DNA from: Aurantimicrobium sp. MWH-Uga1
GTDB lineage: Bacteria > Actinomycetota > Actinomycetes > Actinomycetales > Microbacteriaceae
DNA: 64,000 nucleotides
Assembly: GCF_003325955.1 (NCBI RefSeq)
Contig: NZ_CP030929.1
Location: 1,116,001 to 1,180,000 of the forward strand
Direction of reading: 5' to 3'
Shown here: positions 28,499-51,994 of the stretch, piece by piece
How the letters are laid out: every line of letters starts with the position of its first letter
How positions within the stretch are numbered: position 1 is the stretch's first letter
Translations under genes and position numbers: made by a program
The notes under the pieces: model-generated
Told to the model about the DNA's origin: nothing
Seen by the model: the letters and a program-made list of their open reading frames with translations, nothing else
Databases searched by the model: none

Positions 28499-28868
28499 TG
28501 GTGGAGATGGGGGGAATTGAACCCCCGTCCACTGCTGGGATTGTGAGTCTTCTACGGGTGTAGCTGATTAGAGGCGTTCTACTTGGCTCCGACCTTTGTT
28601 ACCAGCATCTAAGTCGACGAGCCCAGTCTGAGTAAGAGTCCCACAGTGCCCTCAGGCATAACACTGCAGCTAGTTCCCTAGATGACGCCAGAACACGGAT
28701 CGGGATCTAGTCCGGTCTGACGGACTTCAGGCTCGCTTAGGCAGCGAGGGCGAAGTCGGCGCGCTTAGATTTGGCACCTATATTTTGCACAGAGCGTTTA
28801 CGAGATAACTGTGCATCCTCGACCCGCTTCTCTCTCGCTCGCAGGCAATGTCGAATCCGATCATCCCC
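28499..28868 (-). ncRNA. ssrA: transfer-messenger RNA (tmRNA)
   Basis: 370 nt. Acceptor arms pair at 28862-28868 (GGGGATG) and 28503-28509 (CATCTCC), followed by discriminator A and encoded CCA at the 3' end; a T-arm GTTCAATTCC precedes. The tag reading frame (28737-28775) encodes AKSKRADFALAA then TAA, the degradation tag for ribosome rescue; one alanine from the tRNA-like part is added in front. The SKR..DFALAA form is typical of Actinobacteria. It lies downstream of smpB on the same strand. Confidence 0.96.
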
Positions 28869-33444: not shown

Positions 33445-33603
33445 GTGAAGACACCTATCCTTTGAGGTTCTAGTAAGTGCACAAGACAAATCCTCGTTAT
33501 AAAACACCTTAGTTGCTGTTTGAATCCGGAATTGGGAAAACTCATAATTTACCCATCAGATTTTCATAGCCCAGACATAGGAAATCTTCTTAGCGTGGAC
33601 ACC

Positions 33604-34745: not shown

Positions 34746-35861
34746 ATGAAGGTCGCAGTACCAACCGAAATCAAGAACAACGAGTTCCGCGTTGCAATTA
34801 CCCCCGCAGGCGTTCACGAACTTGTTGGTAACGGACACGAAGTCCTCGTTCAGTCTGGAGCTGGCATCGGCTCCTCGATCACAGACGAGGCGTACAAAGC
34901 AGCTGGCGCAAAAATTGTTGCTACCGCTGAAGAAGTTTGGGCAGCGGCTGATGTTCTGCTCAAGGTTAAGGAACCTATCGCTAGCGAATACAAGTACTTC
35001 CGTGAGGGACTCGTACTGTTCACCTACCTCCACCTTGCTGCTGAGCCTGAGCTCACCAAGGCATTGGTTGACTCCAAAGTCACCGCTATTGCTTACGAAA
35101 CCGTTCAGCTTCCTACCCGCCAGCTTCCCCTTCTTGCTCCAATGAGTGAAGTTGCAGGCCGTCTTGCTCCGATCCTGGGCGCGAACGTCATGCTCAAGCC
35201 CAACGGCGGTCCCGGCCTCCTTGTTCCCGGCGTTCCGGGAACCCACCCTGCAAAGGTTGTTGTTCTTGGCGGTGGTGTTGCTGGAACCAACGCTGTTCAA
35301 GTTGCAGCAGGTATGGGCGCAGAAGTGACCGTTCTTGACACCAACCTCTTCCGCCTGCGTGAGCTCGATGCACTGTATGACGGCCGCATCAAGACCATCG
35401 CGTCGAACTCCTTCGAAATTGAGAAGGCATGTCTTGAAGCCGACATGGTCATTGGTTCTGTCCTGATCCCCGGCGCGAAGGCCCCCAAGCTCGTCAGCAA
35501 TGACTTGGTCAAGCGCATGAAGCCAGGCAGTGTTCTCGTTGACATCGCTGTTGATCAGGGAGGCTGCTTCGCAGACACCCACCCAACCACTCACGCAGAG
35601 CCCACCTTCCAGGTGCACAACTCTCTGTTCTACTGCGTAGCCAACATGCCTGGTGCTGTGCCCAACACCTCCACCTACGCTTTGACGAACGCAACCCTGC
35701 CCTACCTGCGCTCCATTGCAAACAATGGATGGCATGCAGCTCTCAAGGCAGACCTCTCGCTGCGTCTAGGTCTGAACACCCACGCTGGTGCTGTGACCAA
35801 TGCTCCTGTGGCAACTGCTGTAGGCATGGAATACAGCGACGTGGACGATATCTTCGCCTAA
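34746..35861 (+). CDS. ald: alanine dehydrogenase
   Basis: NAD-dependent interconversion of L-alanine with pyruvate and ammonia, 371 aa, usual length, cytoplasmic. Recognised by MKVAVPTEIKNNEFRVAITPAGV, the substrate Lys region LKVKEP, the Rossmann VVVLGGGVAGTNA near residue 175, and VLVDIAVDQGGCF. Strong AGGAG lies 6 nt before the ATG. Upstream is a long intergenic region with an inverted repeat that may be an operator. The terminator after it lies inside the convergent gene's last codons. Confidence 0.97.
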   Translation: MKVAVPTEIKNNEFRVAITPAGVHELVGNGHEVLVQSGAGIGSSITDEAYKAAGAKIVATAEEVWAAADVLLKVKEPIASEYKYFREGLVLFTYLHLAAEPELTKALVDSKVTAIAYETVQLPTRQLPLLAPMSEVAGRLAPILGANVMLKPNGGPGLLVPGVPGTHPAKVVVLGGGVAGTNAVQVAAGMGAEVTVLDTNLFRLRELDALYDGRIKTIASNSFEIEKACLEADMVIGSVLIPGAKAPKLVSNDLVKRMKPGSVLVDIAVDQGGCFADTHPTTHAEPTFQVHNSLFYCVANMPGAVPNTSTYALTNATLPYLRSIANNGWHAALKADLSLRLGLNTHAGAVTNAPVATAVGMEYSDVDDIFA

Positions 35862-38416
35862 GTTCTCAACACTGCCCTCGTGGTGGAGCCATCAGCTTCA
35901 ACCACGAGGGCAGTGTCGTTTTCGGTATGAGGGAATAACCCTGATTTGAGACGTAATCCGCGTATCTCGCTTGGTGAGCATCCGTCCAGAATGAGAAGTC
36001 CTGCTTCGCATATTTCGGTGAGTTGAGCGTGGTTCAGCATCCATTCATCCGGGGTGCCAATGAGTATGGGAGAGCGTGCGGAAGAAGAGACGGCCAACGC
36101 CGACTTAAGTGCACTCACCCGATCACCGTATGCATTGGTCAAATGACTGATGAGGGAAGTTTTGCGGTGAGTAATCACTGCATACGAACGATTTTCTTCA
36201 CAAATCATTTCTCCCCACTGACCAGACTCAGGCTGAAGATCACTTACGTGAAAGAGCTGAATTTGATGCCCTCGCCAAAGGCCACGACCCGGCTCAGATG
36301 CACCGAGGAGCTGTAGTCGCACCGGGAACAAATCCACGAGTGCGTGAGTGCCGCGTGGGTGATCTTTGGTCCCGATAACGAAAACTGCGTTGCGTTGGGG
36401 TGCTAGCCGGACACATCTCGTCAGTGAAGCAAGAAACTGCTCACGATGTTCGAGACCGAAACAATCGAGGAGATGATCAAGATCTTCAATGAATACCTTT
36501 GTTCCTTCTCGCAGCAGAGACTCTGACTCCTCAACGACAGCGTCCCAGGCTATCTCGCTATCGCGCAGTAACAAGCCACCTAATTGATAGTGCAATGAGG
36601 CCACTGCGCAGCTCACCCCTGAACGTGCAAGACCACTAATGAGCAGGTTGCCGTCGTGGTGAGGGATGTACGGGGTCCAGTCCTGGGCTTGATGTTCTGG
36701 GATATCGAGTATCCCCAGCCAGGCAGAGTTTTCAAGAGGAGCCGGCATCTCGGAGGATGCAATCACTCGCGGCAGCTCTGGCTTCCACGGCACATGCTGT
36801 TCCCACAACGAATTCTCATCAAGCCAGCATCGAGACATTCTCAAGACTGCATGGAGGTCTTCATCACTTGTTTTGGCCGCCTGGAATTCAGTCAGCGAAA
36901 GACCTGTTCCCTGGATGAAGGCGCGACCTGGAATATGTGGCAATTGATAAGCATCCTCTACTCCAAGTAATCCATGAGAATCTGCTTTTTCGGAAACACG
37001 AAAACATACTCGAAGTGAACAGTTGGCCAAAATGGCATCGTTGATGACTCCCCCGGTTCGTTGGCTTGAGAGGATGAGATGCATCCCGAGGGAGCGTCCC
37101 CTCGACGCCACATCAACAAACAAAGCTGCACACTCGGCGAATGACTCCGTGAGCACTCGATACTCGTCCACCACAATGAGCAAGCGAGAAAGCTCTACCT
37201 CAACTGGTAGATCTGAGATATCTGCAACACCCGCCTCCGCCAAGACATGCTCTCGGTGACGAATCTCTGCCTGAAGCGAGGAGATAGCTCGGCGGGTTTG
37301 TTGAGGACTGAGGTCAGTGAGAACACTTGTGACGTGCGGAAGGTCTTTCACACGTGAAAAGCCTGCGCCACCTTTGTAATCAATCAACAGGAGAGAAAGT
37401 CGTTGTGGGGAATACATCGAGGCAAGTGTCAGCATCCATGAGAGCAAGAACTCTGTTTTCCCTGAGCCTGTCATTCCTGCAATAACGGCGTGAGGCCCTG
37501 CATGAACCAAATCCAGAAACAGTGGAAAGTCATGTTTTCTCCCGACACAGGCCAGCAAGGAATCTCGTGATTGCTCCCATTGCTTTGAGGTATTGATCAC
37601 TGAAGGAACAGAACTTGGAATGGTTATCACCGGAGCATGTCGAGCCTGAGCTGCCTCACTCTCGGCGCGAAGTAGCGTAATGATTCGATTGGACTCTGCT
37701 CGGGTCAACAAATCAACCTGAAGCTCCTCATCACGAACAACTGGGTCCACCACATCACGAAGGACGGCTCTGCCTCGGTTAATGCTAAGGAGATATCGAA
37801 CACCACTGGGCAACACCTCAGTTGTGTTCACGCGGTGAAGGATTACGTCAGCAGGCTGCTGATTCGAACTTGTGAATTGGTCGAGTTCCGGCTCATCACC
37901 AACGCTCCAGCCGACCTTGGTTGCTTCAGAGATTCCCCACGTCCACAACAGCTGGAAATACATAGCCCGCAAGGCTGACCGCGCCTCCACATCATCGCCA
38001 CAGACAGCAATCCCTAATTGAGCATCAATCACTAGTGGTTTCCCCTCACGAAACGCAAGCCCAATCCGAATGAGGCGCTGGGTTCCCTCTGGCTGTGCAG
38101 AAGCAGCCCAGGCAGGTCTGAGATTGTTGGTAGGTAAAGCCCACTGGCTGGCTGCCGGATATTTCAGAATGAGTTCATCCCGCTCAGCTTGGCGCTGCTC
38201 GTGCTTTCGAGCACGTTGAGTTATTTCTTCCTCGTCATCATGTTCCTGTTTGAGTTTTTCTGACTTTCTGACCTGAAGTTTGCCGTCAGCAAACTGGGCC
38301 AGCGCCATGATGGGCCCCAGAAGTGCAAAAAGCAGGGTGTAGGCAGAGCCTGTTACCAACCAGAGAATGACACTTGTGACGATGGGCGCAATGAGGGCAA
38401 AGATAGGAACACGCAT
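35858..38416 (-). CDS. FtsK/EccC-like membrane ATPase
   Basis: 852 aa. Two N-terminal helices (residues 5-40) precede a long charged segment, then an FtsK/SpoIIIE ATPase with Walker A GMTGSGKT near 316, Walker B LLIVVDEYRVL near 418 and SSQRTGG. A second ATPase-like unit begins near 590 with ISGLARSGVSCAV, where the Lys of the P-loop is lost, so it appears degenerate. The layout recalls EccC of type VII secretion, but no WXG100 gene is in the window. It ends the nine-gene minus-strand cluster. DNA translocation, protein export or surface polymer assembly are all possible. The last codons overlap ald by 4 nt and carry its terminator. Confidence 0.85.
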   Translation of the reverse strand: MRVPIFALIAPIVTSVILWLVTGSAYTLLFALLGPIMALAQFADGKLQVRKSEKLKQEHDDEEEITQRARKHEQRQAERDELILKYPAASQWALPTNNLRPAWAASAQPEGTQRLIRIGLAFREGKPLVIDAQLGIAVCGDDVEARSALRAMYFQLLWTWGISEATKVGWSVGDEPELDQFTSSNQQPADVILHRVNTTEVLPSGVRYLLSINRGRAVLRDVVDPVVRDEELQVDLLTRAESNRIITLLRAESEAAQARHAPVITIPSSVPSVINTSKQWEQSRDSLLACVGRKHDFPLFLDLVHAGPHAVIAGMTGSGKTEFLLSWMLTLASMYSPQRLSLLLIDYKGGAGFSRVKDLPHVTSVLTDLSPQQTRRAISSLQAEIRHREHVLAEAGVADISDLPVEVELSRLLIVVDEYRVLTESFAECAALFVDVASRGRSLGMHLILSSQRTGGVINDAILANCSLRVCFRVSEKADSHGLLGVEDAYQLPHIPGRAFIQGTGLSLTEFQAAKTSDEDLHAVLRMSRCWLDENSLWEQHVPWKPELPRVIASSEMPAPLENSAWLGILDIPEHQAQDWTPYIPHHDGNLLISGLARSGVSCAVASLHYQLGGLLLRDSEIAWDAVVEESESLLREGTKVFIEDLDHLLDCFGLEHREQFLASLTRCVRLAPQRNAVFVIGTKDHPRGTHALVDLFPVRLQLLGASEPGRGLWRGHQIQLFHVSDLQPESGQWGEMICEENRSYAVITHRKTSLISHLTNAYGDRVSALKSALAVSSSARSPILIGTPDEWMLNHAQLTEICEAGLLILDGCSPSEIRGLRLKSGLFPHTENDTALVVEADGSTTRAVLRT
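35869..35916. terminator. bidirectional terminator inside the end of the FtsK-like gene
   Basis: Perfect 16-bp inverted repeat ACACTGCCCTCGTGGT and complement, with a 16-nt loop and CGTTTTC on the plus side. It follows ald by 7 nt and, on the minus strand, is translated as part of the last 17 or so codons of the FtsK-like gene. Confidence 0.8.
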
Positions 38417-38482
38417 TCAAGCACTTCAGCACATCAGTGCTGGCTCGATTTTCCATTCACCCCCGCGTGGGGATAACTCGAC

Positions 38483-39100: not shown

Positions 39101-39109
39101 ACTGTGATG

Positions 39110-41308
39110 TTACCTGCGCTTGGGAAGCCAGCTGGTCAAGCGTGCCCAGGGAATGTTGAAAGAACGCAGGGAAATTCGTGCTTGGAAACGTTGCCATCTG
39201 GTGCGTTCTCGAGCAATTTCGTTACTGAGTAGATCAACTTCTGCCCACGCACTACGTGCTTCAGTCTCACTCACTTTTTCACCTGAATACTGAGCTGTGT
39301 CTGCAAGAACAGCAACCGTTGTTGCTGTGTGAATTCCTGTTTCTTTAGCAATTTCCTGACGAGTATGTGATGTTTGCGTTCTCGTGCCGTTATCCACAAG
39401 CACATCCCGGAGTTCATCCCAGGCACCCAAGACTTGTTCCTGGCTTGTAGAAGCTGTAAGTCTCTTGTTCCGTCTTCTGCGTTTGAGGAACACGATAGCC
39501 AGCAATGGTGAGGCCAGAATGCCCAGCCAAAGCAGCGTCCACGCAACACCTGAGATGATGGCCAGAACGGTCTGCAAGACAGGGTCTATTGTGTTGGGCT
39601 GTTCTTCCTGCGCCGCTTCGGCAGAGGCGCTGTCGTTGAGTTGAGGTTCTTCTTGAGCCGGAGGGTCAGCAGCAGTTTGTGGGAATGCCACCTCAGTTGG
39701 ATCTTGTGGCTGCTCGTCCGGAATGGGACGCTCAGCCGGATTGGTGTTGATAGCAACCCATCCCTGATTTGTAGAAACTTCAATCCACGCAGTCATATCT
39801 GAACCAGTGAAAGTCAGCGCTGTCTGTGCACTGGATCCTTCGGGGGCGATGAAGCCCATCACGACCCGTGCGGGGAAACCAAGTTGGGTCGCAATCAACG
39901 CGGCAGCAGTGGAGTATTGCTCTGCATCGCCAACCATGGGAGTTGCTGCAAACAAGGCTGCTATGCGGTTGGCGCCGTGACCTGACGCACTAGGGACTTC
40001 CCCTGGTCGGCCGTGACTGATATATCCCTCAGCCATGAGTGCTGTCAGGGAAGCTTGTAAGCGCTCACCCGCTGAGGTTTTCCCCTTGGTAGTAGTGGCA
40101 ACGAAAGCATCGAGACCGTCCGGAATGATCTCTGGTGCCGGAACGATGGCATCCCCAGGTTTGAGTGACGCAAGGGAATCAACGCCTAGCAAATCTCCCT
40201 CGTGAGCAATAGAGGTGTAACTGTCGCCAGGGGCCAAACCTGTTAGAAGAGCTCCTGTTTGAGATGGGCGACTGTAGTAAAAACTATCTGTCAGACTGCG
40301 AGCATTCGAGCCGGTAAATGTGAGTGTGCCGAGTGCACCTGGCAGGGGTACCCATGGTCCTGTGAGTTGTTCAATGGTGATTTCAGCAGAGATTTTTTGC
40401 CCTGAGGAAGAATCAACTGGTAGCGAACCAGGAATTTTCGTGAAGTCCGCGGCAACACCACCGACCGAATACAGCACTCCGGTGTAGTTATCTAGCGTGG
40501 CCAGAGAAAGACGTTGACCAGCTTCCAAACCTGTCACGGTCAACATTTCTGCAGATAGCTGGTCTCCAGTGACGTAGTTTCGATACTCCGAGAGCGGGCT
40601 GGTGTCATCTTGGAGAACAAAAGGCTGTTCAATTTCAGTGCGCCACACACTGCGATTTGTAATGGGAACTACAACAACAATGGCAGATGCGACAACTGCT
40701 GCCAGAACCACAACACCAAGAGACCTCAACCCTGTCCTTGGGCTTGTACCTCGGCCAGCTGCAAACCACAGCGCAACAAGGATAAAGACGCCAACAGTGA
40801 CCACAATGCTGGCAAAGCTTCTGCTTGGACCTAACCAAATAGAGGCTCCCAGGGTCAGTAACGGGACCACAGCTGCCCAGTTCGAGCGTGCCCGGTTAAG
40901 TGGGAGACGAAGCGATAACACCGTGGCGAGCACAACGCCACACAGCGACAAAATAAATGCGGGAACTAAAAGTGCCTCATAAGATCCCACGGGAGGCATG
41001 ACAGTGACAAGCTGCTTCCAGGAAAGCACAACCTCGGTTATGAGAGAAAGTTCACCTTGGAGCGTGGGAAGAATTCCCACAAGGGCCTGGCTGGGAATGG
41101 CAACAGGAACACCAACGAGTAAATAAATCCCGACCGTTGCCATGACGGTTGCGAGAACCGACCATGATCTACGCGAAGAAAGCAGAGCAATAAGAGCTCC
41201 GAGTACCCCACCAACAACCACAGCGACAATAAACGCAGGCGTTTGATAGACCGGCCATAACGGAACCAGTGAGACCATTACTGCGAGAGCGAGAAAGAGT
41301 GCTCTCAT
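39110..41308 (-). CDS. TgpA-like membrane protein with degenerate transglutaminase domain
   Basis: 732 aa. Six or so N-terminal helices (to about 205), an outer domain with a transglutaminase-like fold (about 420-530), another helix near 590-615 and a cytoplasmic DUF4129-like tail. The catalytic sites look lost: Cys of the usual GDCxxFA is Ala in GDAEQYS, the His position of GHAWVEV reads DMTAWIEV, and the Asp in the WxxxDPT position is Asn in WVAINTNP. The fold may bind peptidoglycan or protein without cleavage. Overlaps the DUF58 gene by 4 nt upstream. Members of the DUF58-MoxR-TGase trio are regularly linked. Confidence 0.86.
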   Translation of the reverse strand: MRALFLALAVMVSLVPLWPVYQTPAFIVAVVVGGVLGALIALLSSRRSWSVLATVMATVGIYLLVGVPVAIPSQALVGILPTLQGELSLITEVVLSWKQLVTVMPPVGSYEALLVPAFILSLCGVVLATVLSLRLPLNRARSNWAAVVPLLTLGASIWLGPSRSFASIVVTVGVFILVALWFAAGRGTSPRTGLRSLGVVVLAAVVASAIVVVVPITNRSVWRTEIEQPFVLQDDTSPLSEYRNYVTGDQLSAEMLTVTGLEAGQRLSLATLDNYTGVLYSVGGVAADFTKIPGSLPVDSSSGQKISAEITIEQLTGPWVPLPGALGTLTFTGSNARSLTDSFYYSRPSQTGALLTGLAPGDSYTSIAHEGDLLGVDSLASLKPGDAIVPAPEIIPDGLDAFVATTTKGKTSAGERLQASLTALMAEGYISHGRPGEVPSASGHGANRIAALFAATPMVGDAEQYSTAAALIATQLGFPARVVMGFIAPEGSSAQTALTFTGSDMTAWIEVSTNQGWVAINTNPAERPIPDEQPQDPTEVAFPQTAADPPAQEEPQLNDSASAEAAQEEQPNTIDPVLQTVLAIISGVAWTLLWLGILASPLLAIVFLKRRRRNKRLTASTSQEQVLGAWDELRDVLVDNGTRTQTSHTRQEIAKETGIHTATTVAVLADTAQYSGEKVSETEARSAWAEVDLLSNEIARERTRWQRFQARISLRSFNIPWARLTSWLPKRR

Positions 41309-42564
41309 GCCAGTGTCATCCTTTTACCCAACAACTGCTGAACGTCATCGAGACGGCCGATAGAAGCCACCGTGAGGCGCCCCATGCGGCGCGTGTGCGG
41401 GGAAGATTCCGGTGCACAGCTCAAAATCACAACCTCAACTCCTGCGGGGAAAGCAATTGAGGCAGAGTGAAGGGTCTTGGACTCAAGAGTTGGACCAGTC
41501 ACCACAAAGACTATTGAGACATCTGCAGCTTGAACAGAAGCTAGACGTGAAAGCTCAACAATGTTGGGGCTTCCTTCTTGCAGATGAACTCCTGAAAGTT
41601 CATCAAGCAGACGATCCTTTGAGACAGTTGACAATCCTCGGACACGATTAGCCGCAGGTCGATCAGCGCGGCGGCGGGAAGCTAACTCGCGTGCGGCTTC
41701 ACGCAGTGCGCTGAGTCGCCCCGTGGGTTGCGGCCTAGCATCAGCGCTCACCAACACGGAAAGATCTCGAGTGTCTCGAATAGCCCGCACACCCAAGGAC
41801 GCAGCCGTGCTGACGGCGAGTTCAAAATCATCATCACCTGCATAAGCAGCCGGGTCAGTATCCAACGCAATCATCAGATGGGAGCGACGAGTTTGCTCAA
41901 ACTGTCGGACCATGAACTGCCCAGTTTTTGCGGTGGATTTCCAGTGAATATTGCGGCGATCATCACCTGGAACATATTCACGCAAAGCGTGAAAGGACAG
42001 GTCACTATCGGTGAGATCTTTCGTGGGATTTCCTTCAAGATCACGAACAAAACCTGTGCTCATACTCAATAAGCCGATAGTGCGTGGGTGAATGAAGAGC
42101 GTGCGTGATTCGCCGTGCACGACCTCGCGAGATACCAACCCCAGTGGGTCTTGACGCACAACACGGGCAGGACCGACCTGTACCATGCCACGGTGTTCAG
42201 TCGGAATAGGTAACGAGATGTCTTCATGAGCACTCTTCCGAAGACGCCCCACCTGGGTTTCAACCTGAGAGTCTCCCACCGGAACAAAAACTTCTAAGCC
42301 CATGAGGGAGTGCGAGGTGGGGTTGCGAACACTGACAATAAGTTGAGCGTCATCTCCGACGACGACGCGTTCATGCGCAAGATGAAAAGAAACCTCGTGG
42401 GCATGGCGAAAAAGTGCATATAAGGATGCGAAGCCGAAGGTAACGATACCTGCAACACCTAAGCCAATAAGTTCAATCCAGCCCTGCGAAGCACCAAAAA
42501 TAAGGCAGAGTAAGGCTGCAACAGCCCAACCCCACCCTCTGATGGTGACTACGCGAAGAAACAT
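41305..42564 (-). CDS. DUF58-domain membrane protein
   Basis: 419 aa. Two N-terminal helices, then a beta-rich region and the DUF58 core LREYVPGDDRRNIHWKSTA near 196, followed by a vWA-like part with MIALDTD. DUF58 proteins are clients of MoxR AAA ATPases and are linked to envelope assembly; molecular function is unknown. The start overlaps the moxR stop by 1 nt (TAATG), the stop overlaps the TGase gene by 4 nt. Confidence 0.9.
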   Translation of the reverse strand: MFLRVVTIRGWGWAVAALLCLIFGASQGWIELIGLGVAGIVTFGFASLYALFRHAHEVSFHLAHERVVVGDDAQLIVSVRNPTSHSLMGLEVFVPVGDSQVETQVGRLRKSAHEDISLPIPTEHRGMVQVGPARVVRQDPLGLVSREVVHGESRTLFIHPRTIGLLSMSTGFVRDLEGNPTKDLTDSDLSFHALREYVPGDDRRNIHWKSTAKTGQFMVRQFEQTRRSHLMIALDTDPAAYAGDDDFELAVSTAASLGVRAIRDTRDLSVLVSADARPQPTGRLSALREAARELASRRRADRPAANRVRGLSTVSKDRLLDELSGVHLQEGSPNIVELSRLASVQAADVSIVFVVTGPTLESKTLHSASIAFPAGVEVVILSCAPESSPHTRRMGRLTVASIGRLDDVQQLLGKRMTLA

Positions 42565-43526
42565 TATGCGGCAGGTGCTCCCACGGGAAGATCAATCAAA
42601 ATCTTGCCCACAACATTGTTCGCGGTCACACCATCGAACTCTGCTTCAGGATCCAGCACGAGGCGGTGTGAAAGAACAGAGTCGGCGAGCGCTTTGACAT
42701 CATCAGGAATGACAAAGTGTCGTCCTTGGGATGCAGCGTGGACACGTGAGGCAGCAATGAGTGCCAGCGCACCACGAACCGAAGCACCCAGGCGCACCTC
42801 GGGGGCGAAACGAGTTGCTTCGACGATTCGTGAAACGTAGTCGTTGATTTCGGCATCTACATGAACAGTCTTAGCTAACTCAATAAGTTTGACCACCATC
42901 TCAGCAGGAACGACTCCGTCGAGTTCTCCTGATTTTTTCTTGGCGGAGCCTTCCAAAATTTGCATGGTGGATGCGTGGTCTGGGTATCCCAACGAGGCTT
43001 TCATCAGGAAGCGGTCGAGCTGCGCCTCAGGTAAGCGGTAGGTTCCTGCTTGTTCAATCGGGTTCTGAGTGGCAATAACCATGAAAGGTTCCCCGGTGGA
43101 GTGTGTCACACCATCAACGGTGACGTGATGTTCTTCCATGACTTCCAAGAGTGCTGACTGGGTTTTTGGGCTGGCGCGGTTGATTTCGTCAGCGAGGACA
43201 ATATTGGAGAAGATGGGGCCTTTGTGGAATTCAAAGGCGCCTTTTTTCTGGTCAAAAATGCTCACACCGGTGATGTCACCGGGGAGAAGGTCCGGGGTGA
43301 ACTGAATACGCGAGTGGGATCCTTGGACACTTTGAGCCATGGCGCGAGCTAGGGAGGTCTTTCCTGTGCCGGGGTAGTCCTCCAGGAGGAGGTGCCCACC
43401 GCTGAGCATCGCGGTGAAGGCGAGGCGAACTGTCCGGTTCTTGCCCAGGAGTACCTGTTCCACGTTTTCGACTAGTTTGTCGAAGACTTTCTGGAACCCG
43501 GCTGCTTGTTCGGGTTTCATGCTCAT
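42564..43526 (-). CDS. MoxR-family AAA+ ATPase
   Basis: 320 aa chaperone-like ATPase. Walker A DYPGTGKTS near 48, Walker B VLADEINRASPKTQSALLEVMEE near 108, sensor I ATQNPIEQAGTYRLPEA, and the RLGASVRGALAL sensor II region. Start at 43526 is supported by AAAGG 6 nt upstream; the frame extends to 43628 without support. Typically activates vWA/DUF58 proteins encoded next to it. Confidence 0.94.
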   Translation of the reverse strand: MSMKPEQAAGFQKVFDKLVENVEQVLLGKNRTVRLAFTAMLSGGHLLLEDYPGTGKTSLARAMAQSVQGSHSRIQFTPDLLPGDITGVSIFDQKKGAFEFHKGPIFSNIVLADEINRASPKTQSALLEVMEEHHVTVDGVTHSTGEPFMVIATQNPIEQAGTYRLPEAQLDRFLMKASLGYPDHASTMQILEGSAKKKSGELDGVVPAEMVVKLIELAKTVHVDAEINDYVSRIVEATRFAPEVRLGASVRGALALIAASRVHAASQGRHFVIPDDVKALADSVLSHRLVLDPEAEFDGVTANNVVGKILIDLPVGAPAA

Positions 43527-43555
43527 GGTGTGCCTTTCGGTGGGACGGGTGACAT

Positions 43556-46500
43556 TTAGGGTGTGGGAGTTGGAATATCTACAGTCATTGCTGAACTGGG
43601 TGCACTGCAGTTGGACGCTGACAAACAAGCCCTTATCACTACATTCTGACCTGCACCAGGTGTGATGCCATTGGAGGCATAGCGACTTGAATCAAATTCA
43701 GCGCTAACAAAGTCAGCACTCACAGCTGTGAGTTCCAGCCAGTTCGAATTACCGACCTTGAGCTGGTAACTCACACTGCCAACAGGGGCGGGTGTAATCG
43801 ATAGCCCAGAAACTTTCAACAGAAAGGCTGTGTTCGGGTCTAAGTTCGCACCACAGTTTGCTGACGTCCCTGTGGCAGGTGCGATCACACAATCAACAGA
43901 GGTAAACGTTGGTGAAGCAATAACTTCAACCTGGGTCACCGTTGCAGAACATCCAAAGTCATTCACGGCAATGACGGCAATGAAGTAGGTTCCCGGTGCT
44001 TTATCGCCATCGGAACCCTGTAGTGAACCCGAAGCGGGGTGTGTTGCGTAGTCGCTCGGACAACCTGCTGAAAGACTTCCCACTCGGGTGACGTAATAGC
44101 GCAGCGCACCGGCAGAGCCAGCTGCCGTTGCTGGATTCCACGTGAGGGTTGTTGCACCAGAGATACTGTTGCTCACCGAAGTGATGGTGACTTGGGAGGG
44201 TGCACCTGGTGCTGTGAAGTTTCCTGAGTCAGTCGAATTCCAGTTTGTCGTTTGCGCACTGTTCTTCGCCGTCACCCTCGCGAAATAGCTGAAACCAGGC
44301 GTCACCGGAATATTGGCCAGTGAGGTTTGATTTGCATCTATGTTGAAGGTGGACCGTGGGCTTCCGTTTTCAAAGAAAACCACCTCATATCCAGTTACAA
44401 GGCTGCCCCCAGCAGGTGTCGTGACTGCAGTCCAGGAAATTGTGGCAAGGCCCTGTTGTCCTGTTACAGCAGAAATGTTCACAGAGGCTGGACCTGCCGG
44501 AATAACATCGGCGCTCAAGGGCTCACTCCAACTGCTCACCAGTGAGGTGCCGATGGCGTTGGTTGCACTGACCGTAAAACGGAATCGCTGCCCGGTGGGC
44601 AAACCATCTAGGGAACACACAGTCGAGGTGCATTCTTTGCGGTATCCCGCATCACTTTCAACCGTGTATTTCGTTATTGGTGAATTGTTAGCGGCAGGTG
44701 CTTGCCAGGACAGGGTGAGGTTTCCTGAGACAAATCCAGCTGCGCGCGTGGGTGCTTGAGGCGCTGAAGGAACGTCTTGCACCGAAATGTTGATCACTCC
44801 CCAGACATAACGGTCTGGGTCGTTGGTGGCATCTGCCACCTCATACTCCAGCGTGGTGTCGCTGGGATCAGCGTTGGCAGAGACGGTGACCGTCAGCGTC
44901 GATTTATCCGCTGAGGGCGTCACCGTTACACCCGGAGGAATGTTGCCATTGTTGAGGCCTCGCACGGCAAGAACCTTGAGTGGCTGTCCCGGGAATGGAT
45001 TGGTTGCTTGATCGTTGGCCAAGACATCTACAGTTTGGGTTTCTCCACGCTTGGCCACAATGCTGTCGGTAGCAGGAATGGCAAGGGGTCTGGTTGAGGG
45101 CACAATTCTGACAAGGATTTGTCCTGGTGAACCCTCAGTGACCTTGTCTTTGACAGTGACGGTGAGGGGAACGGTCTTTCCCTTGACCGCATCATCGCTT
45201 GCTTTGAGAGTGAGGGTTTGGCCACTGAGCGTGGCGGTGACACCGGAGCCATCGCCACTGACGGTGTATTCAAGTTCGTCTTGGTCATCAATATAGGGGT
45301 ATCTGGTCACGCGAACGAGATCCAGTGTCTTTTCTTGACCAGGTTCTAGGTCAATGTTGGCCCCCAGCATGACTGGTGGCATGTTTTCTCGTGGTGTCAC
45401 CGTAATCGGCAACACGATGGTAGCGGTGTGTGCTCCGGGTGAGGTTGCGGAGTCACCATCGGTGACCTCGAAGGAGATGGATGCTGGACCAAAATAACGG
45501 TCTTCGCTGGTGTAGGTCAGGGTGGTGTCATTGATCACCAGGCGTGAACCGTCAGCATGCGTTGCACGCACGCTGTTGCTATCGGTGAGCTTGACGGTTT
45601 TGCCCAAAGCAGCAATGACATAGTCATTGATGTTTATCCGCAGAGGTTGTTCACTGACCACGGTCAGAGGCTTGACGCCTTTCTTACGTTGCGGCAAAGC
45701 ATCATCAGTTCCGGGAACCCAAATAAACGCTGTGGAACTGATGGCGGGATCTTCCGGATGCGCAACAGTAAAGGGAATGATTTGTGAGGTTTCTTGAACC
45801 TGAACACGAACAGTGTTACTAGAGATAACCCGGGCTGTCGATCCATATCCACTCACAATTGTGGGACGCAGCGCAGATACGGGGCCGTCAGCAAAGAAAG
45901 CATTCTTGAGCACGTTCACGTCAACAGAGGATTGGTCCAAAATATCTGACAGGCTCACCACAGCATCCGAGATAACGGGGCGCGAAAGCGGAGCCTGCGT
46001 CTGCACATCCACGGTGATGAAGTTGGAAGCAGAACCTGCAAGATCATTTTCAATCTCATAGACAAGGCCATAACGACCTGGTGTCATCGGCGCAGTAATC
46101 TTGACAAGATCTCCCACAATTTCTGCGGTAACAGAATCATCCTGAGCAGTCACAGATACGAGAGTCAGCGGACGACCATCTGGATCGCTGTCATTTTGTA
46201 GCGCACGAACGTAGACGGTGTAACCAGGGCGCGCCGTGACCGTATCTGCTATTGCAATCGGGTTGCGCCCACCAGCAAGCGGCTCAGCAATACCCACGCG
46301 GATTAATGCGTTGGCTTGAGCTCCCAATGCATCAACGACGGAATAACTGAACGTGTCGGTTCCGGTGGCATAGGCAGATGCCTCGTACTCTATCCAGTCG
46401 CTTCCCACAGCAGCAATGGATCCTTTTTCGGGATTGGTATCTAAACCAACAAATTGAACAGAGTCACCATCAGGGTCAATACCCACCAACGGAATAGGAA

Positions 46501-49237
46501 TTCTCACTGTTTGCCCCGACATGGCCCGGGCAGTCACGGTGCGTGGGGTGGGCGCTTGATTGGTGTCTTGGTCAATCGCGCGCACAGAGATTGTTACCGT
46601 TCCGCTGGCCCATTGACCATTATCTGCATTTACCCGGTACACCGCCGAGTACGTTCCGGGGTTACTACCTGCTAAGAATCTCAACTGGTTGCCCGAGGTA
46701 AACAGCAGACCTGCACCGGAGGGTACGTCTTGATCCAGCTGGGCTGCAAGGGTGAGCTGGCCGCCGTCCGGGTGAATGTCATTCGCGAGTACCGGGATAG
46801 TTATGACATCGCCAACGCGCACGGCAACAACATCGGGGACAGCAACCGGTGCTTGGGCCATGGTGGGGGCGGGTGTTTGCACCACCGTCACGGTGCCCTC
46901 ACTTTGGGAAACACCGTTGCTGATGCGGTATCCGAAAGCCACTGCCGCATCGAGAGGTTTGGTGAGGGTGACGCGAAGAATGCGATGATCCACCACTTCA
47001 ACTTGAATGCCTGAATCCACAGGAATGTTCGTCACACCCGTAACGACGAGAACACCGCCAGATGGATCGCGGTCGGTTGCTGTGACATCCACTGTCCGGG
47101 TCTGCTGCAGGGGAACATACACAGCATGCGCCGCAGTGATCGGCTGTGCAGAAACTTCCGGAGGGTCAATCACGTCAATGCGCACTAACCCAGACCCAGT
47201 GACGTCACCATCGGTGACGGCATAGGTGACATAGGTTGATCCGGTGCGTGAGGCAGTGACCGAGAAGGAGAAGTCAGCAAAGTCGGGAACGATATCCAAT
47301 CCCGGTACTGCTGGAACACCGGTCAAACTCAACACCCCAGAACCACCGCGCACATGAGGTGACGGGTTGATAGTGATGGGTTGTCCCACGATGGCAATAA
47401 CTGCGAAGGCATCGGCAACGATGGGGACTTGTCCAGGTGCTCGAACATTGATTTGAACAGCACCAAACCCAGAGGCTCGGCCATCAGAGATCTCGAGAGC
47501 TACCTGCTTAAGTCCACCGCCACCGCGGCCTGAGTCAGTGAAGGCTACTCGGCCTGCTGGGGTGTAAGAGAGGGAATCGGGGGCGTCCACGGTCGCCGAG
47601 GCCACAAAGATGGCGTCCCCGTCTGGATCAATCCAGTCTTCCAACACGTTGACGATAACCTGGCCACCTGTTGCCACGTTGGTTCGGGTTGGACGTGCTT
47701 GAACAGGCGGTGAGTTCTCGCTCTCTGGACGGATGTTGAGTGTGACGGTGGCAGAGGCCTGTCCACCGCGACCATCGGAGATGCTGTAGTCAAACTGTGT
47801 TGATCCAGAGGCATCTGGTGCCAAACGCACCATGACTTGGCTGCGGTCAGCATTGATATAGATCTCCCCCAGCGCTGCTGGAATGGAGGTAACAGTATCA
47901 ATGACCAGAGCATCACCATTGGGGTCATAGTCATTGAGTAAAACCGGAAGCGAGGTCACTCGGCCCGGGCGCGCACCTAAATCATCATCGACGGCTACTG
48001 GTGGTTGCGGATCTTTAGCAAACTCTGGGGCATCAGCATTATTTGTTTGAACAACCTGCTGCTCAAGTGCTTGCTGTTCGAGCAAAGTATCCCAATTGTT
48101 GATCAGTCTGACCCCGCCCTGAACAGCCCAGACCAATCCGTTGAGCGCATCATTGAGGGCAACAACCTGGTCGCTGACACGGAAGACCAACTCAGCACTG
48201 CCGGCCATAGATTCCGCATTCTCAGTGGATTCTTCTGCAACACCACACTTCGACCACACCGTTCCACCCGACCATGCAGCATAGGCACACTCACCGTGGA
48301 TGACCGCTGATGCCGGACGACCCTGAGCTGAAGCAACAGAGCTGAAAACTTCACCACTATCAAGATTGATGGCGGCAAGGCCTGCGGTGTGAGAAATCAG
48401 TATCGAGGACGAACCAGAAACGGAGGTGATCCGGTTTCCTGATGCTTCAATACCTCGTGCGCTGGGCTGTTGAAGAACTGATTGCCCCACATCAAAAGAA
48501 GCAGAGCCGAGGTCGATGACTCGGCCTTGGGTGTAGAGGGTTGCAGTTTGCTGATCCAGCACCGCCCAGCGTTCCCCGATAAGAGTGGCCTGTACCTTTC
48601 CCGCGGTGAGCTCAGCATCGAGTTGTTGGATGTCTGATGTAACAGAACTAGTGGTGTTGATTGTGGATACCGTTCCCAAGGAAGCGCTAACCCCAACAAG
48701 GTAACCCGCGCTGGAAACTGCCACAACAGAATCTGCTCCAACGGTGAAGTTTGCTGGCTGAGTTTTCGCGTCGAAATTAGACAGGGTTGCTGCGGGCAAC
48801 ACCCATACATCTCCGGTTGCTGGTGCGTGCAAGATGATGTTGTCTCCGGCGAGCGCAGCATAGGTGACATCTTGTGGAAGTGGAATGCTTTCGGCGACCT
48901 CACCGGTGGCCTGATCGACAATATCCAGTGACCTGGTTGCCTCGTTGATAAGGAACACGTGCGAACTGTTTTGAACCAGGTCCATTTGTGTGGAGTCGGT
49001 GGTGAGCACAGTGTTGAGTTCGAACACTTTTGTGTTGGCTCTACCGATTGCTTGTTTATCCCCGTTGGTCACCCATACAGCACCGTCGTCGAGATTGACG
49101 CGCTGTGCTTGGTAACCAGTTGCCAGGATTGAACCGATAACCAACATGGACAGTGCCACAAGAGAGGCGGTCCATTTGAGCACTGTTCGCCTGCGCAGAC
49201 TCATTCCCCGCAGTGTGGCAAACCAACGACGAAGCAT
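43556..49237 (-). CDS. giant membrane-anchored protein: beta-propeller, Ig/cadherin-like and fibronectin III repeats
   Basis: About 1893 aa from the ATG at 49237, 2 nt after the kinase stop (frame open to 49312). A cytoplasmic basic N-terminus (MSLRRRT) and one helix (about 20-43) precede a region of repeated short beta strands (to 380) resembling a propeller. Residues about 410-1480 carry successive Ig/cadherin-like units with D-x-D-P-x-G motifs such as NDYDPNGDALV, DPDGDAIF, NDIHPDGG, NDSDPDGRPLT, typical of bacterial Big_9/VCBS-like modules. From about 1480, three fibronectin III domains (SWQAPAANNSPITKY, TWNPATAAG). No sorting signal. Homologue of the Fn3 protein of bifidobacterial PFNA clusters; likely surface sensing or adhesion. 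Confidence 0.88.
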   Translation of the reverse strand: MLRRWFATLRGMSLRRRTVLKWTASLVALSMLVIGSILATGYQAQRVNLDDGAVWVTNGDKQAIGRANTKVFELNTVLTTDSTQMDLVQNSSHVFLINEATRSLDIVDQATGEVAESIPLPQDVTYAALAGDNIILHAPATGDVWVLPAATLSNFDAKTQPANFTVGADSVVAVSSAGYLVGVSASLGTVSTINTTSSVTSDIQQLDAELTAGKVQATLIGERWAVLDQQTATLYTQGRVIDLGSASFDVGQSVLQQPSARGIEASGNRITSVSGSSSILISHTAGLAAINLDSGEVFSSVASAQGRPASAVIHGECAYAAWSGGTVWSKCGVAEESTENAESMAGSAELVFRVSDQVVALNDALNGLVWAVQGGVRLINNWDTLLEQQALEQQVVQTNNADAPEFAKDPQPPVAVDDDLGARPGRVTSLPVLLNDYDPNGDALVIDTVTSIPAALGEIYINADRSQVMVRLAPDASGSTQFDYSISDGRGGQASATVTLNIRPESENSPPVQARPTRTNVATGGQVIVNVLEDWIDPDGDAIFVASATVDAPDSLSYTPAGRVAFTDSGRGGGGLKQVALEISDGRASGFGAVQINVRAPGQVPIVADAFAVIAIVGQPITINPSPHVRGGSGVLSLTGVPAVPGLDIVPDFADFSFSVTASRTGSTYVTYAVTDGDVTGSGLVRIDVIDPPEVSAQPITAAHAVYVPLQQTRTVDVTATDRDPSGGVLVVTGVTNIPVDSGIQVEVVDHRILRVTLTKPLDAAVAFGYRISNGVSQSEGTVTVVQTPAPTMAQAPVAVPDVVAVRVGDVITIPVLANDIHPDGGQLTLAAQLDQDVPSGAGLLFTSGNQLRFLAGSNPGTYSAVYRVNADNGQWASGTVTISVRAIDQDTNQAPTPRTVTARAMSGQTVRIPIPLVGIDPDGDSVQFVGLDTNPEKGSIAAVGSDWIEYEASAYATGTDTFSYSVVDALGAQANALIRVGIAEPLAGGRNPIAIADTVTARPGYTVYVRALQNDSDPDGRPLTLVSVTAQDDSVTAEIVGDLVKITAPMTPGRYGLVYEIENDLAGSASNFITVDVQTQAPLSRPVISDAVVSLSDILDQSSVDVNVLKNAFFADGPVSALRPTIVSGYGSTARVISSNTVRVQVQETSQIIPFTVAHPEDPAISSTAFIWVPGTDDALPQRKKGVKPLTVVSEQPLRININDYVIAALGKTVKLTDSNSVRATHADGSRLVINDTTLTYTSEDRYFGPASISFEVTDGDSATSPGAHTATIVLPITVTPRENMPPVMLGANIDLEPGQEKTLDLVRVTRYPYIDDQDELEYTVSGDGSGVTATLSGQTLTLKASDDAVKGKTVPLTVTVKDKVTEGSPGQILVRIVPSTRPLAIPATDSIVAKRGETQTVDVLANDQATNPFPGQPLKVLAVRGLNNGNIPPGVTVTPSADKSTLTVTVSANADPSDTTLEYEVADATNDPDRYVWGVINISVQDVPSAPQAPTRAAGFVSGNLTLSWQAPAANNSPITKYTVESDAGYRKECTSTVCSLDGLPTGQRFRFTVSATNAIGTSLVSSWSEPLSADVIPAGPASVNISAVTGQQGLATISWTAVTTPAGGSLVTGYEVVFFENGSPRSTFNIDANQTSLANIPVTPGFSYFARVTAKNSAQTTNWNSTDSGNFTAPGAPSQVTITSVSNSISGATTLTWNPATAAGSAGALRYYVTRVGSLSAGCPSDYATHPASGSLQGSDGDKAPGTYFIAVIAVNDFGCSATVTQVEVIASPTFTSVDCVIAPATGTSANCGANLDPNTAFLLKVSGLSITPAPVGSVSYQLKVGNSNWLELTAVSADFVSAEFDSSRYASNGITPGAGQNVVIRACLSASNCSAPSSAMTVDIPTPTP

Positions 49238-49239
49238 GG

Positions 49240-50346
49240 TTATTGCGCCACCACAATCACAATGGCGGTGATAACTGCAATCAGCGCAGCTGCCGAACCG
49301 AGCACGCTCCACAAGAGTCGACGTCGCCGTTTACTAGCAACAAAGGCTAGTTCATCACGTTGCGCAGGTGTTCCGCTGTATCCGGCGCGACGCCAACTGG
49401 GGTTGGCATGGGCATCAAGTGGGGCGAGCATGGTGCGGTCATTCTCGTTGATAACGATGGCGTTGGATCCCCATTCGTCTCCGACAACATCGAGAGGTGT
49501 TTGGGCTAATCCCATACTGGTTTCAACCTGTTGGAGTTCACGCGCAAATTCCACCGCAGAGTGTTGCCTGTCTATGGGGTTTTTACTCAGTGCTTTGAGT
49601 AGCAACGCCTGGAGTTGCGGTGGAACATCATCGCGGCCAATCGGTTGTGGTTTGGATTTGAGAATGCGGCCAGCTAGGTGTCCTGGTGAATTGTCTTTCC
49701 CAGGAACTTCGAAGGGGCTGCGACCAGCCAGCAAAGAGTAGACCGTTGCACCCAGAGCCCAGATTTCTGAGGCAGTGGTGCCCGTGGTGGTTTCTCTGAT
49801 TACTTCAGGTGCTGACCAGGGAACAGACAGGCCGACTGCTGTTGTGTTATCTCCTTGATAGACCGAGGAAGCAATACCAAAGTCACTCAAGACAGGGTGA
49901 CCGTACGCGGTGATGAGAATGTTCCCTGGCTTAATATCTCGATGCAGGACGTTAGCGCGGTGTGCGGTTTCTAACGCTGCAGCGATTTTGATTCCGGTAC
50001 GTAGTGCTTCTGCCACAGGGAGAGTTTCAGCACGAAAACGTTCACCGTATCCAGAGTTACAGACCTCGGTGACCAGATAAGGCCTGCCATCTGAGCTCAC
50101 GCCTGCCTCGAAAACACTCAAGATGGCTGGGTGGGTGCTCAGTTGTGACATCAGCTGAGCTTCCGATTGGAACATGTCACGAACGCGGGGGTTGACTACT
50201 TCAGGGAGCAACACTTTGATGGCAACATTGCGCCTGGGCAATTGCTGTTCATACAAAAAGACGTCAGCAAATCCGCCCGAGCCCAATACTCGAACAAAGG
50301 TGAAGCCCGAGAGCACGGGTGCGGTTGAAGGTAGACGCCTAGCCAT
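49240..50346 (-). CDS. membrane-anchored Ser/Thr protein kinase
   Basis: 368 aa. Hanks-type kinase: P-loop GSGGFADVF near 22, ATP-binding Lys in VAIKVL near 44, catalytic HRDIKPGNI near 138, DFG in LSDFGIAS near 160, APEVI near 185. Followed by a linker and a C-terminal helix (LLWSVLGSAAALIAVITAIV), with almost no outer domain, so no PASTA sensor. The start at 50346 has AAGGTGG upstream; a GTG three codons earlier is less likely. Neighbours: PP2C phosphatase, two FHA proteins and the giant Fn3 protein, a complete phospho-signalling set. Confidence 0.95.
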   Translation of the reverse strand: MARRLPSTAPVLSGFTFVRVLGSGGFADVFLYEQQLPRRNVAIKVLLPEVVNPRVRDMFQSEAQLMSQLSTHPAILSVFEAGVSSDGRPYLVTEVCNSGYGERFRAETLPVAEALRTGIKIAAALETAHRANVLHRDIKPGNILITAYGHPVLSDFGIASSVYQGDNTTAVGLSVPWSAPEVIRETTTGTTASEIWALGATVYSLLAGRSPFEVPGKDNSPGHLAGRILKSKPQPIGRDDVPPQLQALLLKALSKNPIDRQHSAVEFARELQQVETSMGLAQTPLDVVGDEWGSNAIVINENDRTMLAPLDAHANPSWRRAGYSGTPAQRDELAFVASKRRRRLLWSVLGSAAALIAVITAIVIVVAQ

Positions 50347-50361
50347 GTGGTCCACCTTCCC

Positions 50362-50380
50362 CCAACACCGACGGTGTTGG
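50362..50380. promoter_or_regulatory. 9-bp palindrome upstream of the kinase start
   Basis: Perfect inverted repeat CCAACACCG-A-CGGTGTTGG between the PP2C stop (50425) and the kinase ATG (50346), 16 nt before the latter. No T-run follows on the minus strand, so it may be an operator or RNA hairpin limiting readthrough rather than a terminator. Inference. Confidence 0.45.
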
Positions 50381-50424
50381 TGTGCTCAACGCAAATAACG
50401 CCGTAAATTCAGCGCACTTGAAGT

Positions 50425-51240
50425 TTAAGCAGGTGAAACTGTGGATTCGGTGTGCCCCACCGTGACTGCCATAACGTCGATGACGATGAGGGTGACGTTA
50501 TCGCGACCGCTATTTGTCAAAGCAGCGTTCATGAGCTCCGTTACTGCGTCTTCAACCGTCGGTGCAGCTGAGAGAAAATGCTCGATGCCGACATCGGTCA
50601 GTTCCTTTGTCAGCCCATCAGAACACAGAAGTAAACGCATGCCTGGAATAACGGGAAGTGCAACATAGTCGGGAATTGGTTCGTCGATGATGCCCACAGC
50701 ACGTGTGATCACATTGGCGTGAGGGTGGTAGTCGGCTTCTTCTTTGGTGATGGTGCCTGCATCAACCAGCTGCTGCACCACCGAGTGATCGACGGTGACC
50801 TGTTCGAAAGTCTCGCCCATCTTCACGTACACACGTGAGTCACCAATGTTGAAGATTGCCCATTGCAGTTGATCTGCTTCCTGCACCAATGCCGCACCGG
50901 TGACCGTAGTTCCAGCGCCCTGCTGTTCTTCGGTCAAACGAGAACGCAAATCCGTCACCGATAGTGCTAACGCCATTTCGAGGGCGTCCAAATCAGCAAA
51001 GCCTGACTTTTCGAGACCAGCAATGCGCTGCACAACCGCGTCACTGGCCACATCGCCTGCGCTGTGACCTCCCATGCCATCAGCAACAGCAAAGACGGGG
51101 CAGGCAATCGCGTAGGAGTCTTCATTGTTGGCACGGTGGTTTCCCACATCTGTTCCTGCAGCCCACGCAAGCGTGACGGATGCCCCGGTACTCAGGTCGA
51201 CAACAGTCGTCCCAGTTGAGTTCTGGCCAAGGGCAGTCAC
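50425..51240 (-). CDS. PP2C-family Ser/Thr protein phosphatase
   Basis: 271 aa metal-dependent phosphatase (PstP/PrpC type). Motifs DVGNHRANNEDSY near 32, FAVADGMGGHSAGDVAS near 49, IFNIGDSRVYV near 130, LLCSDGLTKEL near 207, GRDNVTLIVI near 248, giving the Mn-binding Asp residues. Cytoplasmic (no helix at the end). Starts with GTG preceded by GGAG at 8 nt. Counteracts the kinase encoded next. Confidence 0.95.
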   Translation of the reverse strand: MTALGQNSTGTTVVDLSTGASVTLAWAAGTDVGNHRANNEDSYAIACPVFAVADGMGGHSAGDVASDAVVQRIAGLEKSGFADLDALEMALALSVTDLRSRLTEEQQGAGTTVTGAALVQEADQLQWAIFNIGDSRVYVKMGETFEQVTVDHSVVQQLVDAGTITKEEADYHPHANVITRAVGIIDEPIPDYVALPVIPGMRLLLCSDGLTKELTDVGIEHFLSAAPTVEDAVTELMNAALTNSGRDNVTLIVIDVMAVTVGHTESTVSPA

Positions 51241-51283
51241 AGAAAGTTCTCCAAGATTGGGGCGTTACCCGTTCCTTAAACGG

Positions 51284-51994
51284 TTAGCCAAGAACTTCAA
51301 TTCTATTACCGTCTCCAAGGTCCACGATTGCGCCAACACTCAAGGCCATGGAATCCCCGGGCGCGAGCAAGACGGTTGGGTGAGATGGAATGATGATGCG
51401 TGTTCCATTTGTAGAGCGTAAATCAGTCACAACCACCACATCCCCCTGCATTTCCAAGCGGGCGTGGGTGGAGGAAACAATTCCGTCCGGTGAGGAAAGA
51501 ACGGCCAGTGTCACGCTTTGCTCTGATCGCACAGGCACCACAGGGAGCCTGCCAAAGATTACCGGCTTCGTCAGCGACCACTTTGTTCCATTGATATGAC
51601 GCAGGGAGAACTGCGAATGAATATCTTCTTGTTGCTCAGGCTGGTCTTCAGGTTCCTCGTCGATGTTCTCCAGATCTCCAAGCAGTTGCTTCACACCCAC
51701 AGACGTATCGAGCAGGGAACCGATGAGTGTGTTGTATTGGCCTGTGGTGGACTCTGGAATCACCGTCTCATCTGAAGTAATTACCGTGTCATCTTCCGAC
51801 GGAATGACCGCGCCAACGATGGTGGCATCATCACCGGTCACCGCGTCGATGACTGTGCTTTCAATAACCTCAACCGAGCCAACAATTGTTTCATCAATGG
51901 GAACCCGAATAACGGTGTCATCATCAGGATTATCGGGGATGACGGTGTCATCATCTGGGGTGATGTGGGTGTTCTCGTCAGGGTTATTCATCAT
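51284..51994 (-). CDS. FHA-domain protein with acidic Asp/Thr-rich N-terminus
   Basis: 236 aa. The first 110 residues are acidic with repeated DDTVI units (ITPDDDTVIPDNPDDDTVI), each with a Thr next to Asp/Glu, a likely kinase target region. The rest is an FHA domain: IFGRLPVVP, SSTHARLEM, STNGT. Presumed phospho-reader or substrate of the cluster kinase (GarA/FhaB-like logic). Two consecutive ATGs; either may start. 21 nt after smc, so smc and this cluster could share transcripts. Confidence 0.88.
   Translation of the reverse strand: MMNNPDENTHITPDDDTVIPDNPDDDTVIRVPIDETIVGSVEVIESTVIDAVTGDDATIVGAVIPSEDDTVITSDETVIPESTTGQYNTLIGSLLDTSVGVKQLLGDLENIDEEPEDQPEQQEDIHSQFSLRHINGTKWSLTKPVIFGRLPVVPVRSEQSVTLAVLSSPDGIVSSTHARLEMQGDVVVVTDLRSTNGTRIIIPSHPTVLLAPGDSMALSVGAIVDLGDGNRIEVLG

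Follow-up and report, generated by a model that had tools for sequence, protein, structure and literature searches.

A block of nine genes was analyzed in a window of Aurantimicrobium sp. MWH-Uga1 (the whole stretch of 64,000 nucleotides, positions 1,116,001 to 1,180,000 of contig NZ_CP030929.1), and we read it, with about an even chance of being right, as an envelope system of Microbacteriaceae that resembles the PFNA (Pkb2-Fn3-AAA-ATP) cluster of Bifidobacterium and carries a stripped EccC ATPase, kin to the EccC of a wider actinobacterial locus similar to type VII secretion systems (T7SS). This reading rests on sequence: the composition of the block, the selection acting on it, the kinship of its proteins, and what is missing, namely the FHA region and third ATPase domain (D3) in the ATPase and WXG100 genes in the locus. 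The genome is a single contig of 1.61 Mb, and its nearest named relatives are Aurantimicrobium minutum strains (93-97% identity in MoxR). Nine open reading frames (ORFs), all on the minus strand, fill positions 35858-51994 and encode, in the order of transcription (51994 to 35858), an FHA-domain protein, a PP2C phosphatase, a Ser/Thr kinase, a giant protein, a MoxR ATPase, a DUF58 protein, a transglutaminase-like protein, a zinc-ribbon FHA protein, and a short EccC-like ATPase; the ORFs and Pfam thus confirmed the gene order and strand given in the first-pass annotation. Pfam scores exceeded the cut-offs for FHA, PP2C_2, Pkinase, Big_9, fn3, AAA_3, DUF58, TgpA_N, Transglut_core, and FtsK_SpoIIIE, and the zinc-ribbon FHA protein remained under both of its cut-offs (20.0 versus 25 bits and 20.4 versus 20.7 bits). 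With refined starts, the intergenic gaps were 43, 69, 2, 29, -1, -4, 9, and 66 nt; since these fall within -4 to 69 nt, the earlier range of -4 to about 78 nt is valid.

The arrangement is conserved. The 80 related loci used for comparison were the best MoxR matches of a genome scan, a sample that favors the clade of the window, and their named genera belong to the Microbacteriaceae; gene order was counted in the 63 loci longer than 20 kb, with the remaining 17 (20 kb or shorter) excluded. Of the 63 loci, 56 (57 by a looser count) carried the nine genes as separate ORFs on a single strand in the order of the window, and 46 had all nine with an ATPase-bearing EccC. The EccC match included the ATPase in 48 loci and the N-terminal part only in 10, and none was found in five. 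Among the seven loci failing the strict count, three (L042, L054, and L062) lacked PP2C, EccC, and a separate zinc-ribbon FHA gene, L057 seemed frame-broken, L088 lacked a separate zinc-ribbon FHA gene, and EccC was not found in the L065 and L105 loci. Ratios of nonsynonymous to synonymous substitution rates (dN/dS) against one congener (G299) ranged from 0.015 (MoxR) to 0.151 (EccC), with 0.146 for the giant, and as far as this single comparison goes it shows purifying selection on all nine genes. A chance arrangement is excluded because of this conservation of order together with these dN/dS values. Catalytic motifs were retained in relatives by the kinase (70/73) and PP2C (65-66 of 66), FHA motifs by the first FHA protein (66-74 of 75) and the zinc-ribbon FHA protein (53-76 of 76), and the motif of the first ATPase domain (D1) by 51 of 66 EccC ORFs (the stubs and cut ORFs being among the 15 without it).

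In the available parts of the PFNA literature, the Bifidobacterium cluster consists of pkb2, fn3, aaa-atp, duf58, and tgm, to which some species add prpC, a hypothetical gene, and fha, the operon of B. longum having eight genes with prpC and fha included (PMC8430577); the B. longum FN3 giant has 1994 aa (PMC10688814), and PFNA is reported there as a sensor of host immune signals restricted to Bifidobacterium (PMC6803598, PMC10688814). The block shares with PFNA the five-gene core order kinase-Fn3 giant-MoxR-DUF58-TGase (transglutaminase) and a giant of similar size with a C-terminal fn3 domain. Furthermore, the window giant belongs to the same hidden Markov model (HMM) family and tree as the giants of f4 g24 (Bifidobacterium); the matches of an f4 giant, where named, are all from Bifidobacterium, and a B. 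scaligerum protein of 2021 aa matches the G019 giant. The core was complete in three of the six f4 g24 contexts, and in the other three a single core gene either had no label or fell outside the stretch. The likeness to PFNA claimed earlier therefore holds in both respects, namely the same core gene order and a homologous giant. The core order was also found in contexts of f9 (G056 and G190) and f13 (G073), and the N-terminal region of the giant was matched in 133 of 248 genomes from the order, representing 46 of 86 genera; a phylum-wide sample gave matches in 8 of 197 genomes (three from the order, including that of the window). Judged by homology, PFNA-like giants and the core order extend beyond Bifidobacterium, contrary to the published restriction.

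The proposal of a distinct PFNA variant is supported. Unlike PFNA, the block has a zinc-ribbon FHA gene and a short EccC gene after the TGase gene, whereas none of the six f4 g24 contexts (18.5-28 kb) showed an EccC, and the giants of the two fell into separate groups in an unrooted tree. The block also has FHA and PP2C genes upstream of the kinase gene, but these are not additions to PFNA because prpC and fha are present in the eight-gene B. longum operon as described in the available text of PMC8430577. The giant begins with a signal-anchor helix (residues 19-45) followed by a beta-propeller (residues ~50-385), which the first-pass annotation had left unnamed; residues 604-625 form another hydrophobic stretch, and the C-terminus has none. 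Most trees in this analysis were quick ones supported only by the SH-like approximate likelihood ratio test (SH-aLRT). The corrected giant tree split three ways into a Bifidobacterium-type group (f4 and five others; 13 rows, support of 100), the nine-gene group (14 rows, 100), and a third group (32 rows, 95) to which all 20 giants located near a full EccC belong. A clade uniting the nine-gene giants with those of Bifidobacterium (SH-aLRT of 87) was discarded, the tree that gave it having included a wrong-frame row (nine_L055).

The ATPase was EccC-like rather than FtsK-like, as had been suspected. EccC (4nh0) was its best match by both sequence and structure (E values of 5.8e-52 for 4nh0 versus 5.3e-17 for FtsK), and the nearest NCBIfam models were EssC and EccC, with scores (197.7 and 179.4 bits) that fell far short of the respective equivalog cut-offs (778.4 and 509.15). 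Identity as the DNA translocase FtsK was rejected on the E values and because a canonical FtsK is encoded separately in the genome; FtsK and the block ATPase are the only FtsK/SpoIIIE-family matches of the genome over the cut-off. A hydrophobic N-terminal segment and an N-terminal module are followed by D1 with intact Walker motifs and a second ATPase domain (D2) with a degenerate Walker A, the latter motif being lost in Aurantimicrobium; the whole is colinear with the full-length EccC of giant-linked loci, minus the FHA-bearing N-terminus and D3. Architecturally, the EccC-like protein is a T7SS motor in reduced form. A role as a conventional T7SS exporter, as first envisaged, is not supported, with D3 gone and no neighboring WXG100 gene; of the parts that mark a T7SS, the block has the EccC/EssC-family ATPase (under the equivalog cut-offs), but neither D3 nor an in-locus WXG100 gene. 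Fission of an FHA-EccC into the zinc-ribbon FHA protein and the short EccC was rejected because genes of the zinc-ribbon FHA family also occur in FHA-EccC loci (e.g., G005, G176, and G090). A very short EccC-like ORF of 591-697 aa (L269-L275 and L279) was present in all eight f4 genomes searched (six f4 g24 and two f4 g8); these ORFs formed a clade of their own and lay outside the fetched PFNA neighborhoods.

An EccC of more than 1300 aa was found in 17 of 42 fetched giant contexts, spanning nine families of the order; these contexts were picked from strong hits and some were 20 kb or less, so that 17 of 42 is no frequency (in G212, EccC lay beyond the fetched stretch). A WXG100-like ORF was located within 6 kb in 14 of the 17 contexts. 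WXG100 calls outside Pfam used a purpose-built HMM, and when three small WXG100-like ORFs were checked with Pfam, L149 exceeded the cut-off (61 bits) and two with identical scores were under it (21.5 versus 27.3). The typical order was giant-MoxR-DUF58-TGase-zinc-ribbon FHA family-PP2C-FHA-kinase-small gene-EccC-WXG100, and another, near that of the window, was PP2C-(FHA)-kinase-giant-MoxR-DUF58-TGase-EccC-WXG100. In all five giant-linked full EccCs tested, Pfam placed an FHA domain at the N-terminus with a score above its cut-off. By eye, the ~90 residues before this FHA domain (L202:11237-15691 and others) resemble a ubiquitin-like beta-grasp; if this is correct, the ATPase may carry the TsxB/EsaB part as a fusion. 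A conserved gene of 234 aa between the kinase and the full-length EccC (L145:16154-16858, also in the L147/L148 context) had no Pfam hit and by eye resembles a degenerate FHA with a helical region after it.

Among published types, T7SSd of Actinomycetota contains a kinase, an FHA-bearing ATPase, WXG100, and a large Ig-domain protein (Garrett, Higginson, and Palmer 2024, PMC11217815). The terms MoxR, DUF58, transglutaminase, and fibronectin had no occurrence in the available text of that article, and our search of open-licence PMC articles found no paper joining the set of MoxR, DUF58, TGase, and giant with a T7SS. The block shares with T7SSd/T7SSe, as far as covered there, an EccC-type ATPase, a predicted Ser/Thr kinase, a PPM phosphatase, a separate FHA protein (T7SSe), and a large Ig-domain envelope protein (PMC11217815), but its ATPase is without the N-terminal FHA and D3, WXG100 is missing, and the giant has an N-terminal anchor and no C-terminal hydrophobic stretch, whereas TsdI has a signal peptide and a C-terminal transmembrane (TM) helix. 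With T7SSa (ESX), the ATPase shares the EccC family and 4nh0 as its best match, but D3 is gone and EccB, EccD, EccE, and mycosin are not among the nine genes. DUF58 proteins hold a vWA domain. The MoxR-vWA ternary systems described in part in PMC7159879 similarly combine MoxR with a DUF58 partner and a propeller-bearing protein, but the block MoxR scored 211 bits with AAA_3 and 39 with bpMoxR, over the bpMoxR cut-off of 27, and the effector domains named in the available text are not among the Pfam hits of the block. A defense system was also considered and is not favored: PADLOC, run on seven of the nine proteins, gave hits for the kinase and ATPase that appeared to be at the superfamily level.

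Several observations weigh against the reading of the block as a PFNA-like system with a stripped, T7SS-derived EccC. The sister relationship between short and giant-linked EccCs, with an SH-aLRT of 96 in a quick tree, was not resolved in a careful tree of D1 only; two of the 17 giant-side EccCs (G237 and G185) fell outside the giant-linked clade; and the giant tree does not fix which two of its three groups are sisters because it has no root. In ten Frigoribacterium loci (L038, L044, L048-L050, L056, L064, L073, L075, and L076), the EccC-like gene is cut to the N-terminal 274-314 aa, without the ATPase domain. Moreover, among 31 short EccCs from 60 family genomes (selected for their scores and the lengths of their ORFs, without lower-scoring short ORFs such as those of G237, G274, G287, G296, and others), ten were not within 20 kb of a giant, and one of these genomes (G261) has a short EccC and no giant match. 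Finally, the genome has a single WXG100 gene, located elsewhere (L001; G000:C1:277430-277678, minus strand), directly downstream of groEL.

This last gene bears on an unlikely alternative, in which the block is a working minimal T7SS whose short EccC exports WXG100-type substrates encoded elsewhere, the giant being an envelope conduit like TsdI. The intact D1, the short EccC as the only FtsK/SpoIIIE-family candidate over the cut-off beside canonical FtsK, the presence of WXG100 in 58 of 60 family genomes, and the large Ig-domain protein reported for T7SSd (PMC11217815, in part) are all consistent with it. However, of 30 fetched WXG100 loci, 15 had groEL in the same 3-kb stretch, among them that of G258, a genome in which the best match to the ATPase among the matches listed is FtsK-like (E value of 7.2e-12); the groEL-side gene was therefore not accepted as proof that a T7SS is working. 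Neither the window nor the fetched sequence of the 80 related loci showed a WXG100 ORF. D3, which binds the EsxB signal, is missing. Since the WXG100 ORF, N-terminal FHA, and D3 are all missing, WXG100 export by the block is not supported, and a standard WXG100 exporter is less likely; judging from its gene content, the block is probably not one.

Equally improbable in our estimate is that two systems are simply neighbors without a shared mechanism, namely a PFNA operon (FHA, kinase, giant, MoxR, DUF58, and TGase) and an independent PP2C/zinc-ribbon FHA/EccC unit. In four of the ten unlinked genomes, the short EccC was on the contig of the giant at a distance of 62 kb to 2.0 Mb, and in five the giants were on other contigs only (G294, among the unlinked cases, is an assembly of 290 contigs). 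The scattering of the FtsK-like and zinc-ribbon FHA genes in relatives, which the first-pass annotation had regarded as fatal to its proposal, was thus seen in 10 of 31 genomes for the short EccC, but a PP2C or zinc-ribbon FHA gene remained beside it in nine of these ten. When L161, L222, L253, and L254 were added to the ten, a PP2C match lay just upstream of EccC, or of a zinc-ribbon FHA gene preceding EccC, in 11 of the 14 separated loci (with zinc-ribbon FHA between PP2C and EccC in L230 and L242); PP2C ran to the locus edge in L237, L245, L250, L251, and L253 and was split over two frames in L254. In L240 and L243, zinc-ribbon FHA was upstream of EccC at the locus edge, and the short flank of L252 had nothing. 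In a tree without L250 and L254, nine PP2Cs of separated loci formed one clade (99) with 15 from nine-gene loci, forcing at least three state changes. Mycetocola miduiensis and two Labedella genomes, in which the block locus is without PP2C, separate zinc-ribbon FHA, and EccC, all had a short EccC elsewhere with PP2C sequence just upstream, while no short EccC, only longer EccC or FtsK, was among the matches listed for seven Frigoribacterium/Frondihabitans genomes. On the other hand, PP2C and EccC flank kinase-giant-MoxR-DUF58-TGase in 56 of 63 loci, 21 of the 31 family genomes have the short EccC no more than 20 kb from a giant, and the full-EccC loci unite the same gene families, all of which speak against mere neighbors. 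That PP2C and EccC stay paired through repeated separation is the strongest clue to function in these data. Far less credible is a signaling operon for cell-wall homeostasis with the EccC-like protein as a decaying passenger: the lost D2 Walker A, the Frigoribacterium stubs, and the highest dN/dS of the nine genes agree with it, but this value is still purifying and near that of the giant, the D1 motif persists in most EccC ORFs (51/66), and PP2C stays beside EccC.

For the PFNA-like envelope system with a stripped EccC, we infer the following mechanism. The kinase, with a C-terminal TM-like segment (346-371) and no extracellular domain in a hydrophobicity scan, would set the phosphorylation state of shared partners together with PP2C, and the FHA proteins would dock on the phosphorylated partners. 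The EccC ring, lacking both an FHA region and D3, may be switched via zinc-ribbon FHA and PP2C and may be the motor that assembles or inserts an envelope complex containing the giant propeller/Ig protein; MoxR and DUF58 would act as remodeling chaperones, and the TgpA-type enzyme would process or cross-link the complex. A bolder version, which we advance only tentatively and consider rather less probable than the reading above, is that PFNA operons, the nine-gene block, and an undescribed actinobacterial T7SS subtype (giant propeller/Ig protein, MoxR, DUF58, transglutaminase, phospho-module, FHA-EccC, and WXG100) represent three branches of a single ancient envelope machine; the Microbacteriaceae motor, minus FHA docking and D3, would have become a two-ATPase engine coupled to a dedicated PP2C, building or inserting a surface complex instead of secreting WXG100.

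Features of the nine-gene block, in the order of transcription
Feature	Positions	Strand	Evidence
FHA-domain protein, 236 aa, first gene of the block	51284..51994	-	Pfam FHA, 29.5 bits (cut-off 20.7)
PP2C phosphatase, 271 aa	50425..51240	-	Pfam PP2C_2; NCBIfam Stp1-like, under its cut-off; PP2C tree
Ser/Thr kinase, 371 aa	49240..50355	-	Pfam Pkinase, 138.9 bits
Giant protein, 1893 aa from likely ATG	43556..49237	-	Signal anchor, beta-propeller, Big_9/cadherin-like repeats, fn3
MoxR AAA+ ATPase, 320 aa from likely ATG	42564..43526	-	Pfam AAA_3, 211 bits
DUF58 protein, 419 aa, two N-terminal TM-like segments	41305..42564	-	Pfam DUF58; hydrophobicity scan
TgpA-type membrane transglutaminase-like protein, 732 aa	39110..41308	-	Pfam TgpA_N and Transglut_core
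Zinc-ribbon FHA protein, 205 aa	38483..39100	-	Pfam Zn_Ribbon_1 and FHA, slightly under cut-off; family kept in place
Short EccC-like ATPase, 852 aa	35858..38416	-	Pfam FtsK_SpoIIIE over cut-off; NCBIfam EssC/EccC nearest

The block is bordered by smc, the end of which is 21 nt from the start of the first FHA gene, and by a convergent gene (34746-35861) that the stop of EccC overlaps. Elsewhere in the window, a tmRNA gene was found at 28499-28868 (tag peptide AKSKRADFALAA), and an ORF at 32593-33507 with glycine-rich repeats and a C-terminal LATTG followed by a hydrophobic stretch resembles, by eye, a sortase substrate.

PFNA has been regarded as a host immune signal sensor, but homologous blocks occur in Microbacteriaceae and other families, and near T7SS genes in related loci; therefore, an older and more general envelope function is argued. 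This suggests that the block and PFNA are branches of one wider envelope system. MoxR-DUF58-TGase modules thereby gain a candidate client (the giant) and a candidate motor (EccC), and the separable PP2C-EccC pair allows the question of phosphatase control over a T7SS-family motor to be asked directly.
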